Shown: piece by piece, positions 12,120 through 17,844 of the stretch | Position numbering within the stretch: the stretch's first letter is position 1 | Layout of the letters: each line of letters opens with the position of its first letter | NCBI RefSeq assembly: GCF_001552255.1 | Contig: NZ_BCQV01000002.1 | Span: 62,001-126,000, forward strand | DNA length: 64,000 nucleotides | Reading direction: 5' to 3' | From: Alicyclobacillus shizuokensis NBRC 103103 | Lineage (GTDB): Bacteria; Bacillota; Bacilli; Alicyclobacillales; Alicyclobacillaceae | The notes under the pieces: model-generated | The model's input: only the letters and a program-made list of their open reading frames with translations | Databases searched by the model: none | What the model was told of the DNA's origin: nothing | Position numbers and translations under genes: made by a program

Positions 12120-12899
12120 TCATGCCTGGACGTGTTTATGCATACGCTGGATGGCAGCCTTCTCGAGACGCGATACCTGAGCCTGGGAAATGCCGATTTC
12201 CTCGGCGACCTCCATCTGGGTTTTGCCTTCAAAAAAGCGCATGGACAGGATCTTTTTCTCGCGGTCGCTCAGCTTGCGCATCGCCTCTCGAATGGCAATT
12301 CCCTCCACCCAATTGGAGTCTAGGTTCTTTTCGTCATGAATTTGGTCCATGACGTAGATTGGATCGCCCCCATCGTTGTAAATCGGTTCAAACATAGAGA
12401 CCGGATCCTGGATGGCGTCCAGGGCAAAGACCACATCCTCCTTGGGGACATTCATGGCCTCGGCAATTTCGACAATGGTGGGCTCCCGCAGCTTTTGGTT
12501 GGTTAACTGATCCCGCACTTGCAACGCCTTGTAGGCGACATCCCGCAGCGAGCGGCTGACGCGTATGGGATTGTTGTCGCGCAGGTAGCGGCGGATCTCG
12601 CCGATGATCATGGGTACTGCATAGGTGGAGAAACGAACATTTTGGGACAAATCAAAGTTATCGATGGCCTTCATGAGACCGATGCAACCCACCTGGAACA
12701 GATCGTCCACATATTCGCCGCGGTTGTTGAACCGCTGAATCACGGAGAGAACCAGACGCAGGTTGCCGTTGACCAGTTTCTCCCGAGCCGACCACTCTCC
12801 ACTTTGCAACCGCACAAACAGCTCACGCATCTCCGTGTTTTTCAGAACAGGAAGCTCCGATGTGTTCACTCCGCAGATCTCGACCTTAGTGCGCTTCAT
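12120..12899 (-). CDS. sigG: RNA polymerase sporulation sigma factor G
   Basis: Sigma-G drives late forespore transcription. From ATG 12899 (MKRTKVEICGVNTSELPVLK) the product has 259 residues, the family length. Region 2 is nearly invariant (FNNRGEYVDDLFQVGCIGLM), region 3 includes NNPIRVSRSLRDVAYKAL, and region 4 holds the helix-turn-helix TQMEVAEEIGISQAQVSRLE. The open frame upstream of 12899 is not conserved. A sigma-F-like promoter lies between sigE and this gene (12941-12969). Confidence 0.98.
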   Translation of the reverse strand: MKRTKVEICGVNTSELPVLKNTEMRELFVRLQSGEWSAREKLVNGNLRLVLSVIQRFNNRGEYVDDLFQVGCIGLMKAIDNFDLSQNVRFSTYAVPMIIGEIRRYLRDNNPIRVSRSLRDVAYKALQVRDQLTNQKLREPTIVEIAEAMNVPKEDVVFALDAIQDPVSMFEPIYNDGGDPIYVMDQIHDEKNLDSNWVEGIAIREAMRKLSDREKKILSMRFFEGKTQMEVAEEIGISQAQVSRLEKAAIQRMHKHVQA

Positions 12900-12940
12900 G
12901 CTGTTCTGTCCCCCCACATCCGTGACGACCACTGCGTCAA

Positions 12941-12969
12941 CAGTATTTCCGGGGGTCTCCAAGTTATGC
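12941..12969 (-). promoter_or_regulatory. Candidate sigma-F/sigma-G promoter of sigG
   Basis: On the minus strand GCATA (12965-12969) is followed after 14 bases by GGAAATACT (12942-12950). Both elements match the sigma-F consensus (GYWTA, GGNNANAMT), but the usual spacing is 15. sigG is sigma-F transcribed in B. subtilis, so the location fits. Confidence 0.5.
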
Positions 12970-13038
12970 AAAGCCGACTCGCTGGGTCGGCCGTCGGTCG
13001 CGCTCGGCGCAGCACCTTCAAGTCGATGGGGTGGGAAC

Positions 13039-13788
13039 CTACATCATGCGGTCAAACTCCTGTTGCAGTCGTTTGATGATGCGCTTTTCTAAGCGAGAGA
13101 TGTATGACTGCGAAATGCCCAGCAGGTCGGCCACATCCTTCTGTGTCATCTCGCGCCCTCCTTGCAGCCCAAAGCGCAGTTCCATGATCTTGCGCTCCCG
13201 ATCTGACAGCCTTGACAGGGCGTCGTACAGCAGTTCCCTGTCCACCTCTTCCTCCAGGTTGCGGTAGATGGTGTCCGCGTCGGTGCCGAGCACATCGGAC
13301 AACAGGAGTTCGTTGCCGTCCCAGTCGACGTTCAGGGGCTCGTCAAAGGACACTTCGGTGCGAACCTTGCTGTTGCGCCGCAAAAACATCAAAATTTCAT
13401 TTTCTATGCAGCGCGACGCGTACGTAGCCAACTTGATCTTTTTCTCGGGGTCAAACGTGTTCACTGCCTTAATCAGTCCAATGGTCCCAATCGACACGAG
13501 GTCCTCGATGTTGACGCCCGTGTTCTCAAACTTGCGGGCGATATATACCACTAGGCGCAGATTGCGTTCTATGAGAATCGAACGCACCGCCTGGTCCCCT
13601 TCCGGCAGGCGGCCCAGCAGGTACTCTTCCTCGTCGCGGGTCAGCGGCGGAGGCAAGGCTTCACTCCCGCCGACGTAATAAATCTCTTCATAGCCGCCGG
13701 CCAATAGAGCCCGGATGCGAATCCACAACAGACGCATCCGCATGCGCCATCGCAGTCGAATCTGTGCTGGCAACTGGGAATTCATCAA
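13039..13788 (-). CDS. sigE: Pro-sigma-E, mother-cell sporulation sigma factor
   Basis: Sigma-E is made as an inactive precursor and cleaved by SpoIIGA. The 249-residue product has a basic, amphipathic pro-region (about residues 1-38, ending at [16 protein letters not shown], where processing occurs in B. subtilis), then core-binding region 2 ([20 protein letters not shown]) and the region 4 helix-turn-helix ([20 protein letters not shown]). TTG 13788 or ATG 13785 follows GGAGG; an internal ATG at 13743 would give a pro-region closer in length to B. subtilis. The gene begins about 100 bases inside spoIIGA. Confidence 0.97.
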
Positions 13789-14701
13789 AGCCGTCAGCCT
13801 CCGTTATCACAGCTGCGTGTAAGATCATCTGGAAGTCGCGGTCGGACGACAACTCGCCCGCGTGCAGGGCAATCAGACAGGCGCCGCCTGCACGCCACGT
13901 TTGGCCATGCCGCAACTCGACAGCGTCGGGACGGAAGGCGAGGGCCAGTTGTGCACCGCCGGCCCCCTGCAACGGTACCAGGGTAAAGCGATGGCGGCCC
14001 TGCCCATCCTCGACTTGCTCCAGCGCACTCAGCAGGTCTCCCCTTTGCACCAGCGCCGTCCACAAAGGCTGGGGCAGCAGGCCGGCACAAGCCGAGGCAT
14101 CAGCCAAGCAGACGGGCTTACGGGAGACCGGATCGCGCAGCCGATTGCCTGTATCCACCAGGCCCATCAGCGTGACGGATTCGCCGTTGAACACCACGCG
14201 CACCGGCAGCACCGCGCCGGCGTGCTGGGTTTGCACCCGCCATCGATAGGCCGCGTAGCGCAACAGGAAGCCGGCCAATAAAATGGCGATCAACAACCCC
14301 AAACTCTCGAAACTCGTGGCAAAGGCAATCCGGGAGCCCTGCACCTGGGCCGTCGCCAGGGAGGTACCGGGAACCGCGTAATGAAGGGCCATCGCCGCTC
14401 CGGCAAAGACAAAGGAGACGAAATAGAACATGACCGATACGCGCAACCATTCCAACCAGCGGCGGCACGGAATGGCCACGGCCACCATGGCAAGGGACAC
14501 GACGACCTTGCCAGGCCACGATGTCAGCCACGCTAGTGACGGAAAAAACAGCAGCACTGCGTACATTGCGCCGAGCAAGGCAGCTGCCAGAATGCGCTTC
14601 GGCCGTAATGGACGCCGGCAAATCCAGGCGCTTGTGGCCAACAGCAGGCCGTCCATCACGAAGTTGATCAGCCAAACCACATCGAGATACACGACGGGCA
14701 T
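13688..14701 (-). CDS. spoIIGA: Sporulation sigma-E processing protease SpoIIGA
   Basis: SpoIIGA is a membrane aspartic protease that cleaves pro-sigma-E after signalling from the forespore. Five hydrophobic segments occupy residues 1-160. The soluble domain has the retroviral-type active site [11 protein letters not shown] near residue 182, and the C-terminal AVI segment is near residue 294. At 337 residues it is about 28 longer than the B. subtilis protein; the extra tail is encoded within the overlap with sigE. Confidence 0.93.
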
Positions 14702-14890: not shown

Positions 14891-16009
14891 TCAACGCTCG
14901 CGGTCGCGGCGAAAACGCTCCTCGCGGCGGCGAATGAACGCGGGAACATCCCATGAGTTAGACGGCACGTTCGCCTGGTTGAATCCGTCCGCCACCGAGG
15001 TACGCACACGCGTGGCCGCGACACCGGCCGCCGCCGTCGCCTCGGGCGCAGTGGCCTTCGCCTCGAAGCCGGTGGCGATGACAGTCACCACAATGTCATC
15101 CTGCAGGTCAGGGTTGATGTTGGCCCCGAAAATCATGTTGACCTCAGGGTCCACGGCCGCCGACACAATGTCTGCCGCTTCGTTGACCTCCCACAGGCTC
15201 AAGTTCTCGCTTCCCGACACATGCATCAGGACGCCGCGCGCACCCTCGATGGACGTTTCGAGCAATGGACTGCAAATCGCCATCTTGGCCGCTTCGGTAG
15301 CCCGGTTCTCGCCGGATGCGGTGCCGATGCCCATCAGGGCGGAACCCCGTTCAGTCATGATAGCCTTGACGTCCGCAAAATCCACATTGATGAGGCCGGG
15401 TACCGCAATCAAGTCGGAGATCCCGGAGACGCCTTGCCGGAGCACATTGTCCGCCTCTTTAAACGCTTCCGTCACCGGTGTGTTGCGATCCACAATCTCC
15501 AATAACCGGTCGTTGGGAATCACGATCAAGGTGTCGACCTTTTCCTTCAGGTTGGCGATGCCGACCTCCGCTTGGCTCATCCGGCGCTTTTGTTCAAATC
15601 GAAACGGTTTGGTCACCACGCCGACCGTCAGCGCCCCCAGCTCCTTGGAAATCTCGGCGATGATAGGCGCGGCCCCCGTACCGGTCCCGCCTCCCATGCC
15701 GGCGGTGACGAACACCATGTCCGCGCCCTGCAGAGCGTTGGTCAAAGCCTCCCGGCTCTCTTCGGCGGCCTTCTTGCCGATTTCGGGATTAGCACCCGCC
15801 CCTAACCCGCGAGTGACCTTCTCACCAATCTGAATCCGCGTCTCCGCCTTGGACAGGCGCAACGCCTGGGCATCGGTGTTGACCACGATAAACTCGACGC
15901 CGGCAATGCCTGAGTCAATCATCCGGTTGACCGCGTTGCAGCCCCCGCCCCCCACGCCGACGACCTTGATGCGTGCGAGCGAATCGACTTCCAAATCAAA
16001 CTCCAACAT
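14891..16009 (-). CDS. ftsZ: Cell division GTPase FtsZ
   Basis: FtsZ polymerises into the division ring. The 372-residue protein has the tubulin signature [10 protein letters not shown] near residue 105, the T7 synergy loop [11 protein letters not shown] near residue 208, a spacer rich in Ala and Thr, and a conserved C-terminal peptide ([12 protein letters not shown]) that binds FtsA, SepF and other partners. It follows ftsA by 32 bases in one unit. Confidence 0.98.
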
Positions 16010-16041: not shown

Positions 16042-17274
16042 TTATACGAAATCACGGAACCAATCACGGACACGGGCAAAAAAACCACCGCTCCTCGCGG
16101 CCCGCACATGCGTTGCCGGTTCCATGCTCATGTTGCGGGCGTGCGTCCGCAGTGCGTAAGCAATCATCCCCACCCCGTTGATGAACGAAGGGTCCCGCAC
16201 ACCGAGAAATTCCGGCACCGCCACACGGACAGGCGCACCCAGCTCCTCGCTGGCTAATTCCGCCGCGCCGGGAATCGCCGCCACCCCGCCGTGCAGGACA
16301 TACCCGCTGGTCAAGCCTCGTGCGTAGCCCAGTTTCTCTACTTCTTTTCGAACCAGCGAAAAGATCTCCTGCAACCGGGGTTCAATGATGGTCATCAAAT
16401 CGTATTGGTTGTATTCCGTCTCCTGGTTGCTGCCAATCCGCGGCACCTTGAACCACTCGCCGTCGCCGCCGCCAATCGCGGCCTCAGTGGCCCGGCCGTA
16501 CTGCACTTTCACCTGCTCGGCCGCCGTCGTGTGGGTCCGCAGACCGATGGCGATGTCGTGCGTGACATAGTCTCCGCCCATCGGGATGATGCTGGTGGCC
16601 ACCAGACCTCCATTCTCAAAGATGGAGACAGAGGTGGCGCCGGCGCCCATGTCCACCAGGGCGACCCCCAGATTGCGTTCATCGGCGGATAGTGCCACGT
16701 GCCCGGCCGCCATCGGCAACAGGACCAAATTGGCGACCTCTATTCCCGCCTTTTCCACACACCGGACCACGTTATGAATCGCGGTGCGACTGCCGGTGAT
16801 AAGATACGCGTCCGCTTCCAGGCGCACCCCGAGCATGCCCCGTGGATCGGCAATGCCACTGAGCCCATCCACCACAAACTCCTTCGCCACCACGTCGATG
16901 ATCTCCCGCTCCGGGGGCAGCGCGACGACTCGCGACTGAGCCAGCACCCGCTCAATGTCTTCCTCGCCAATTTCACGATCCGGTGAAGACACGGCGACCA
17001 CTCCGTGGCTGGTCTGCAGTTGGATATGATTGCCGGAAACGCCCACGTAGGCCGATGTGATATGTATCCCCACCATCCGCTCAGCGTGATCAACCGCTTC
17101 CCGAATCGATTCCACGGTCAAATCTATGTCCACGATGGATCCGTGGCGAATGCCCTCTCCAGGCGCGGATCCAACGCCGATCACGTTGATGCTGCTGCCC
17201 GCTTGTTCACCGATGATGGCACGGACTTTAGAAGTGCCAATATCGAGACTGACGATGTAATCCCCTTTTGCCAA
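16042..17274 (-). CDS. ftsA: Cell division protein FtsA
   Basis: FtsA is an actin-like protein that tethers FtsZ to the membrane. The N-terminal phosphate loop [15 protein letters not shown], the 1C insertion and the [13 protein letters not shown] phosphate-2/adenosine region are present. The last residues ([15 protein letters not shown]) form the amphipathic membrane-targeting helix. TTG 17274 after GGGAGG gives 410 residues starting [13 protein letters not shown], which fits the family better than the 15-residue longer open frame. Confidence 0.96.
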
Positions 17275-17335
17275 TGCGCGTGGCACCTCCCGAACACACA
17301 ACTCCGCCGTGATACGCAAAATGTCCTTGTGACTA

Positions 17336-17362
17336 ATTCCACAGGAACGTCAACAATCCTCT
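17336..17362 (-). promoter_or_regulatory. Sigma-H promoter of ftsAZ
   Basis: On the minus strand AGAGGATTG (17354-17362) and GTGGAAT (17336-17342) are separated by 11 bases. The sigma-H consensus is RNAGGAWWW-N11/12-RNNGAAT, so 15 of 16 defined positions agree. In B. subtilis the ftsAZ P2 promoter is also sigma-H dependent and is used for polar septation. Confidence 0.75.
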
Positions 17363-17363
17363 C

Positions 17364-17390
17364 TTCGACACAAGTTTTTCTCTATCGACA
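17364..17390 (-). promoter_or_regulatory. Two candidate Spo0A (0A) boxes upstream of ftsAZ
   Basis: On the minus strand TGTCGAA (17364-17370) is a perfect core 0A box and TGTCGAT (17384-17390) has one mismatch. They lie 20 bases apart, just upstream of the sigma-H element, in the same orientation as ftsA. Confidence 0.5.
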
Positions 17391-17466
17391 CACTCCTCGG
17401 CCCCCAGCCGCTCTTCGCCGGCGAACCAAGATTCACCACATGGGAGTCTTTGCACTGGGGAAAGAC

Positions 17467-17844
17467 TCAGCCGTGCGACTTGTCCACCGCGCCCCTGTGG
17501 CGCCGCTCCCCCATTTTGTTAAAGGCCAGACGGCGGATGAGCGCGATGTTTTGGAACAGCCGTACGCCGAAGGCAACGACAGCGGCCAGGTACAGGTCGA
17601 CCCCCAGCTGATTCCCGATGTACGCGAGCAGGGCGGCGACCAACGTGTTAAAGAAAAACCCTGTCAGGAACACAAAACTATCAAACGTCTTTTCCAGACT
17701 CGCCCGCACGCCGCCGACCACGGTGTCGAGCGCAGCTAGGATGGCAATAGATAGATAACTCGTAAACGAGACAGGAATCGTGAAATTGGTAACATATCCA
17801 ATGGCCACGCCGATAATCAGGCCAATGACCGGTAGCCAAAACAT
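17467..17844 (-). CDS. sbp: Small basic protein Sbp (DUF1290)
   Basis: This 125-residue membrane protein has three hydrophobic segments and the family stretch ILAALDTVVGGVRASLEKTF. Sbp genes lie next to ftsA in many Bacillota, but the function is not known. The start shares one base with the preceding DUF881 stop (TAATG). The C-terminus (after about residue 105) is polar and variable. Confidence 0.93.
   Translation of the reverse strand: MFWLPVIGLIIGVAIGYVTNFTIPVSFTSYLSIAILAALDTVVGGVRASLEKTFDSFVFLTGFFFNTLVAALLAYIGNQLGVDLYLAAVVAFGVRLFQNIALIRRLAFNKMGERRHRGAVDKSHG

Follow-up and report, generated by a model that had tools for sequence, protein, structure and literature searches.

The division genes ftsA and ftsZ of this Alicyclobacillus are preceded by a sigma-H promoter which, judged by its conservation, is ancestral, common to most of the Bacilli sampled and nothing special to this species, and sigma-H control of ftsAZ in this organism is, as far as sequence can tell, close to certain. 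We propose, with a probability of roughly 0.52, that this developmental promoter carries next to its -35 element a Spo0A site that would help the sigma-H polymerase at the onset of sporulation. Direct binding of Spo0A to the proximal of two 0A-like boxes (box 2) is probable; that Spo0A binds at ftsA, that the boxes cooperate, that the outcome is activation over repression, and the timing of all this are what we infer.

The window, that is the whole 64-kb stretch analysed, lies on contig 2 of a 3.63 Mb genome (G000). Among named relatives its FtsA is closest to that of Alicyclobacillus kakegawensis (99%) and then A. herbarius (93%), an identity that places the source genome in Alicyclobacillus near A. 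kakegawensis. On the minus strand the gene order is a small gene at the sbp position, ftsA, ftsZ, spoIIGA, sigE and sigG (Table 1), the first of them being presumably sbp, a name taken from synteny. We placed the true ftsA start at the TTG at 17274, behind the ribosome binding site GGGAGGTG, because conservation of the protein among relatives sets in near this point; an open reading frame start at 17319 was rejected, since the relatives conserve position 17274 instead. The genome encodes sigma-H (TIGR02859, 367.7 bits, over the cut-off), and the DNA-binding domain of its own Spo0A is well conserved, with 114-115 residues aligning to the solved chains 1FC3 and 1LQ1. No intrinsic terminator was found between the sbp-position gene and ftsA. 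An inverted repeat, GAGTCTTT...AAAGACTC (17444-17468, minus strand), directly follows the sbp-position gene, and the A. kakegawensis locus L003 has a similar repeat in different letters; as a hairpin it was rejected, its fold being no better than that of shuffled sequences (z -0.44), and the same was true of the fold of the ftsA leader (z -0.35).

Table 1. Features of the ftsA region, in coordinates of the window
Feature	Position	Strand	Remarks
sigG	12120..12971	-	TIGR02850
sigE	13039..13788	-	TIGR02835
spoIIGA, next gene downstream of ftsZ	13688..14701	-	TIGR02854, 203.7 bits, slightly below the cut-off of 209.55
ftsZ	14891..16009	-	TIGR00065; only FtsZ_C match in the genome
ftsA, TTG start	16042..17274	-	TIGR01174, 382.7 bits against a cut-off of 175.85
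Ribosome binding site of ftsA, GGGAGGTG	17284..17291	-	GGAGGTGCCA recurs in relatives
Sigma-H -10 element, GTGGAATTA	17334..17342	-	Kept in relatives (GAA required for anchoring)
TGTTGAC	17349..17355	-	Degenerate counterpart of the TGTCGAA found over the -35 edge in other genera
Sigma-H -35 element, AGAGGATTG	17354..17362	-	AGAGGA in at least 37 of 38 anchored Alicyclobacillaceae per column (GG required for anchoring)
Box 2, proximal 0A box, perfect TGTCGAA	17364..17370	-	Offset -8 in all three genus members
A/T element, AGAAAAACTT	17372..17381	-	Sits at the family-wide conserved A/T tract; UP-element-like
Box 1, distal 0A-like box, TGTCGAT	17384..17390	-	One mismatch; kept in A. kakegawensis (L003/L032)
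Small protein gene (sbp position), upstream of ftsA	17467..17844	-	ORF; no NCBIfam match

The sigma-H consensus is RNAGGAWWW, a spacer of 11-12 nt and RNNGAATWW. The ftsA promoter, AGAGGATTG-N11-GTGGAATTA on the minus strand, starts 88 nt ahead of the ftsA start and fits this consensus at 14 of 15 specified positions with a spacer of 11, and the motifs listed in the initial annotation (the minus-strand promoter and the cores TGTCGAA and TGTCGAT, 20 apart) were all recovered at exactly the positions given there. The pattern AGGAWNN{12,14}GNNGAAT was matched once in the 64 kb against 0.52 expected, which is no excess over chance; the decisive case for the promoter lies in its conservation upstream of ftsA. 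A sigma-A promoter was also considered, as TTGACG spans the sigma-H spacer, yet between 17240 and 18000 no sigma-70-type pair occurs on the ftsA strand, and the sole candidate there is on the plus strand, directed away from ftsA. The ftsAZ transcript would start at roughly 17320-17332.

In order to follow the promoter across the Bacilli, 41 Alicyclobacillaceae genomes were searched, of which 40 gave FtsA and 39 an upstream region (30 loci and 9 more), the FtsA of the fortieth (G031) being a C-terminal part only and so without an upstream region; 80 named loci were taken from genome contigs, and from a search of 200 Bacilli genomes we used 30 loci and 72 further stretches, picked to span families. 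Removal of duplicates by their last 200 nt left 178 distinct sequences, comprising 39 Alicyclobacillaceae, 54 of the named Paenibacillus group and 85 others, the last including five of family f4, which we took as Paenibacillaceae. A sigma-H score of at least 13 within 250 nt of the ftsA start was reached in 36/39, 54/54 and 76/85 of these, respectively, at dinucleotide-shuffle rates of 2.4, 9.2 and 7.1%. Lowering the threshold to 12 gave 38, 54 and 78 sequences (shuffle rates 10, 24 and 19%), leaving one miss in Alicyclobacillaceae, L016, whose upstream region is identical to that of a metagenome-assembled record, and seven among the others, namely L203, L204, L205, L208 and L209 (f3), L206 (f16) and L211 (f41). 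The sigma-H promoter proposed ahead of ftsA-ftsZ is thus borne out by deep conservation. The accompanying statement that sigma-H boosts ftsAZ in B. subtilis agrees with the available parts of PMC12421865 and PMC10990147, which describe a sigma-H promoter upstream of ftsA and a sporulation-linked rise in ftsZ.

A single base separates box 2 from the -35 motif, and box 1 begins 20 bp upstream of box 2, start to start. Taken alone, TGTCGAA is no more frequent in the window than chance allows (13 against 8.0 expected); the box pair was matched once in the window against 0.01 expected and six times in the whole 3.63 Mb genome, where the reversed pattern had no match. Four of the five other pairs lie inside open reading frames of 453-1004 aa, and the fifth (L284) overlaps only one of 122 aa. 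The genome holds four cases of a box with a sigma-H promoter in the next 30 nt (reversed pattern, 0), three of them ahead of ftsA, flgB and yvyF and the fourth (L278) overlapping open reading frames and looking accidental; the 41 family genomes together gave 80 candidate composites of this kind and 7 matches to the reversed pattern, a pattern without control for codon use. The initial annotation had asked for conservation in close relatives, and within the genus this held for box 2, kept in all three members, and only partly for box 1, kept in two of the three, A. herbarius (L004/L033) reading TATCGAG at that position; other genera have a box at a different place or lack one. The promoter spacer is conserved among the three members as well, which makes their sharing of the boxes weak evidence. 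The TGTGGAA of the -10 was rejected as a further 0A box, being nothing other than the sigma-H -10 and departing from the core at C4.

The composite ahead of flgB (L275, G000:C1:107541-107578, minus strand; flgB by TIGR01396) combines TGTCGAA with a sigma-H promoter and has a 0A-like core over its -10, as spo0A does; similar composites occur in both genus relatives, and the arrangement suggests Spo0A/sigma-H control of the flagellar operon. The one ahead of the flagellar-region gene yvyF (L277, G000:C29:8222-8260, minus strand; TIGR03826) consists of TTTTGTCGAA and a sigma-H promoter, and composites like it are likewise present in both genus relatives.

The promoter of spoIIA, an operon activated by Spo0A, served as an internal comparison. 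Its plan in Alicyclobacillaceae is TGTCGAA followed by TTTTGTC directly before the -35: among the 21 loci parsed out of 39, TTTTGTC stands 14 nt from AGGA in all 21, the box step is 30 in 19 and the distal core is a perfect TGTCGAA in 17, one locus (L216) having no recognisable distal core. With a looser pattern the TTTTGTC-type element was found in 32 of the 39, and in the other seven with a third pattern. The source genome and its two genus relatives follow the same plan at a distance of 15, and in f4, where a search of 16 genomes supplied 15 spoIIAA loci above the cut-off, both the 14 nt and the step of 30 recur in 15/15. At ftsA the two genus relatives show a corresponding distance of 13, and L018, a member of another genus, one of 14, while the window reads TTGTGTC there; the proximal element therefore stands 13-14 nt before AGGA at ftsA as compared with 14-15 in spoIIA of Alicyclobacillaceae and f4. 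Box 2 lies within 1-2 bp of the place of the spoIIA proximal box in both Alicyclobacillaceae and Paenibacillaceae, and in both promoters the second box lies whole helical turns upstream. The two differ in the step, 30 bp in spoIIA and 20 in ftsA, and in the proximal box, which is seldom a perfect TGTCGAA in the spoIIA sequences compared.

The family's spo0A promoter Ps resembles ftsA in having perfect 0A cores upstream of a sigma-H promoter, a layout also described for B. subtilis in the available part of PMC12090719. Its boxes are placed differently, with a 10-bp spacing some 38 nt ahead of the -35 and another box over the -10, where ftsA has none. Tandem TGTCGAA-type boxes with a GTCGAA core over the -10 were found in 25 of 31 Alicyclobacillaceae loci, those which a permissive pattern, itself fixing the 10-bp step, was able to parse, and the f4 spo0A promoters carry perfect TGTCGAA/TTCGACA, with TTCGACA abutting the -35 motif in 8/10 (by pattern). 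Box-to-box steps are 10 bp in spo0A, 20 in ftsA and 30 in spoIIA, thus putting the boxes on one face of the helix. In the spo0A promoters L245-L274 and L288 a GAAAA(G/C)TATT-like element recurs between the tandem boxes and the -35, and it resembles the A/T element of ftsA.

That element is at the centre of the main rival explanation, which we regard as rather unlikely: only the sigma-H promoter and an A/T UP-type element bound by the alpha subunit would work, the heptamers being drift in the T-tract/A-tract, and sporulation control would run through sigma-H alone, as for P2 of B. subtilis ftsAZ, said to have been recognised as a sigma-H promoter in the 1992 work of Gonzy-Treboul that PMC12421865 and PMC6657595 cite. 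The UP element consensus is an A-tract/T-tract upstream of the -35, and such a tract is present at the ftsA promoter, as a putative site for the alpha subunit. When 38 Alicyclobacillaceae were aligned on the promoter anchor (GG and GAA cores required), the strongest upstream conservation was an A-tract then a T-tract at -19 to -11, with 1.4-1.65 bits in columns -18, -16, -12 and -11, and the Paenibacillus group has a similar tract, its most conserved upstream part, at -17 to -10. It also fits this rival that the last 20 nt ahead of the -35 have a higher A+T content than the flanks, with 0.68, 0.83 and 0.77 for the three sequence groups.

Family-wide, columns -8 to -4 of box 2 hold only 0.02-0.26 bits, and only 4/38 have a forward TGTCGAA in the 60 nt preceding the -35, one of the perfect boxes being that of L018, at -9; boxes conserved throughout Alicyclobacillaceae were rejected on these figures. 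In 16/38 (15/15 distinct sequences of genus g2 and 1/2 of g3) a perfect TGTCGAA stands at +7, where it overlaps the -35 at its downstream edge, and the remaining Alicyclobacillaceae have no perfect box. The genus-weighted family consensus at +7 to +11 is TGTCG (0.93, 0.93, 0.64, 0.46 and 0.70), where the genus of the window has TGTTGAC; one reading is that this genus let an ancestral site over the -35 decay and that the upstream pair took its place. Box 1 is best taken as a lineage-specific addition. With one genome drawn per genus, 3.5 of 14 genera had a perfect core about 30 nt or less from the -35; random segments from the same loci gave 0.33, and 0.4% of the random draws reached three genera. 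Of the 14 genera, ten are without a perfect core. In the f13 loci L134, L137 and L138, TTCGACA, the reverse 0A core, lies over the ftsA -35 edge at +7, just where some Alicyclobacillaceae have the forward core.

In the Paenibacillus group the heptamer upstream of ftsA reads TGTAGAA or TGTTGAA at -10 in 51 of the 54 named sequences and TGTAGAA at -9 in one; of the two exceptions, one was anchored on a doubtful promoter match. The heptamer is thereby one base upstream of the spoIIA proximal position (-10 as compared with -9). Immediately before the -35 of the same group (L054-L111, offset -17 to -1) a strongly conserved stretch of 17 bases, AAAAATTTGTAGAAAAA, abuts the sigma-H element. Heptamer positions G2 and G5, both contacted by Spo0A according to the available part of PMC3485338, are each G in 53/54 sequences amid an otherwise A/T stretch; the same source gives a roughly 10-fold loss of binding by C. 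difficile Spo0A for C4A. The A variant nevertheless occupies a Spo0A site in Paenibacillaceae, because the distal spoIIA box of f4 is TGTAGTT or TGTAGAT in 15/15, at the place of the TGTCGAA of Alicyclobacillaceae, and the prior for a Spo0A site in the window is therefore raised. This favours taking the Paenibacillaceae ftsA heptamer as a real, possibly low-affinity, predicted Spo0A site. Among the other Bacilli, a set that includes the five f4 sequences, 72/78 anchored promoters lack a TGTNGAA-type heptamer directly ahead of the -35 although the stretch is A/T-rich, again in line with an A/T element acting alone, and the six that have one read TGTAGAA in four cases. The nearly invariant G2 and G5, which an A/T element does not need, argue against that explanation, as do the placement of the box within 1-2 bp of its spoIIA counterpart and the perfect cores near the promoter in members of four genera. 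The direct Spo0A boxes put forward in the initial annotation are accordingly plausible as regards box 2, given its spoIIA-like place and the conserved DNA-binding domain of Spo0A, and weaker as regards box 1, which is imperfect and shared by two of three genus members, an upstream perfect box being confined to 4/38 of the family.

A second alternative, that the boxes are real Spo0A sites which repress or cap ftsAZ late, or once Spo0A~P is high, we hold to be improbable. At B. subtilis spo0A the 0A boxes upstream of the sigma-H promoter were mainly repressive in a fitted model, yet one upstream box alone raised the activity of that promoter (PMC12090719, available part). The perfect box over the -35 edge in 16/38 Alicyclobacillaceae could block polymerase there, but in the window this overlapping site is degenerate and the perfect box is upstream, as at spoIIA. 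Activation is, by analogy with spoIIA, the likelier sign of Spo0A action at ftsA; the suggestion of a "more direct switch" to polar septation presumed it, and in view of the mainly repressive spo0A boxes is not supported in that form. That the sigma-H match is a chance look-alike, with transcription of ftsAZ entering from upstream or depending on a sigma-A promoter, is very improbable, for although the pattern is expected 0.52 times per 64 kb and the intergenic stretch holds no terminator-like site, scores of at least 13 in 36/39 Alicyclobacillaceae and 54/54 of the Paenibacillus group, and a sole sigma-70-type candidate pointing away from ftsA, speak against it.

According to the preferred reading, a Spo0A site assisting the sigma-H promoter, Spo0A~P and sigma-H would rise at the onset of sporulation and Spo0A~P would occupy box 2 beside the -35, together with box 1, which lies on the same side of the helix two turns further upstream. 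Bound Spo0A~P would then help sigma-H RNA polymerase to fire at ftsA, as at spoIIA, and the resulting rise of FtsA and FtsZ would supply the polar septum. Compared, by its published description, with P2 of B. subtilis ftsAZ, the promoter is alike in its sigma-H type and in its place immediately in front of ftsA, with which it is conserved; it differs in the perfect box abutting the -35 in Alicyclobacillus, sigma-H alone being named, and no 0A boxes, in the available part of PMC12421865. Titles and abstract openings, a coverage from which subscription journals are mostly missing, held no report of 0A boxes upstream of ftsA or of the conservation of the ftsA sigma-H promoter across Bacilli.

More widely, and at somewhat less than even odds, direct control of ftsAZ by Spo0A may be old and widespread in Paenibacillaceae and Alicyclobacillaceae, the box being kept, as TGTAGAA in the former and TGTCGAA in the latter, while its position shifted (-10, -9, -8, or +7 over the -35), and may set the dosage of the divisome at polar septation on top of the sigma-H and SpoIIE routes. 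So far, sigma-H-driven ftsAZ and SpoIIE have been the explanations for the Spo0A-dependent switch of division from mid-cell to pole. If true, a Spo0A site on the ftsAZ promoter would link the master regulator to divisome dosage by a short route, and there would be a set of natural promoters that differ in the place of the box, bearing on how the position of Spo0A decides between activation and repression of sigma-H polymerase. If the sites work, the start of spore formation would be tied directly to the division machinery.
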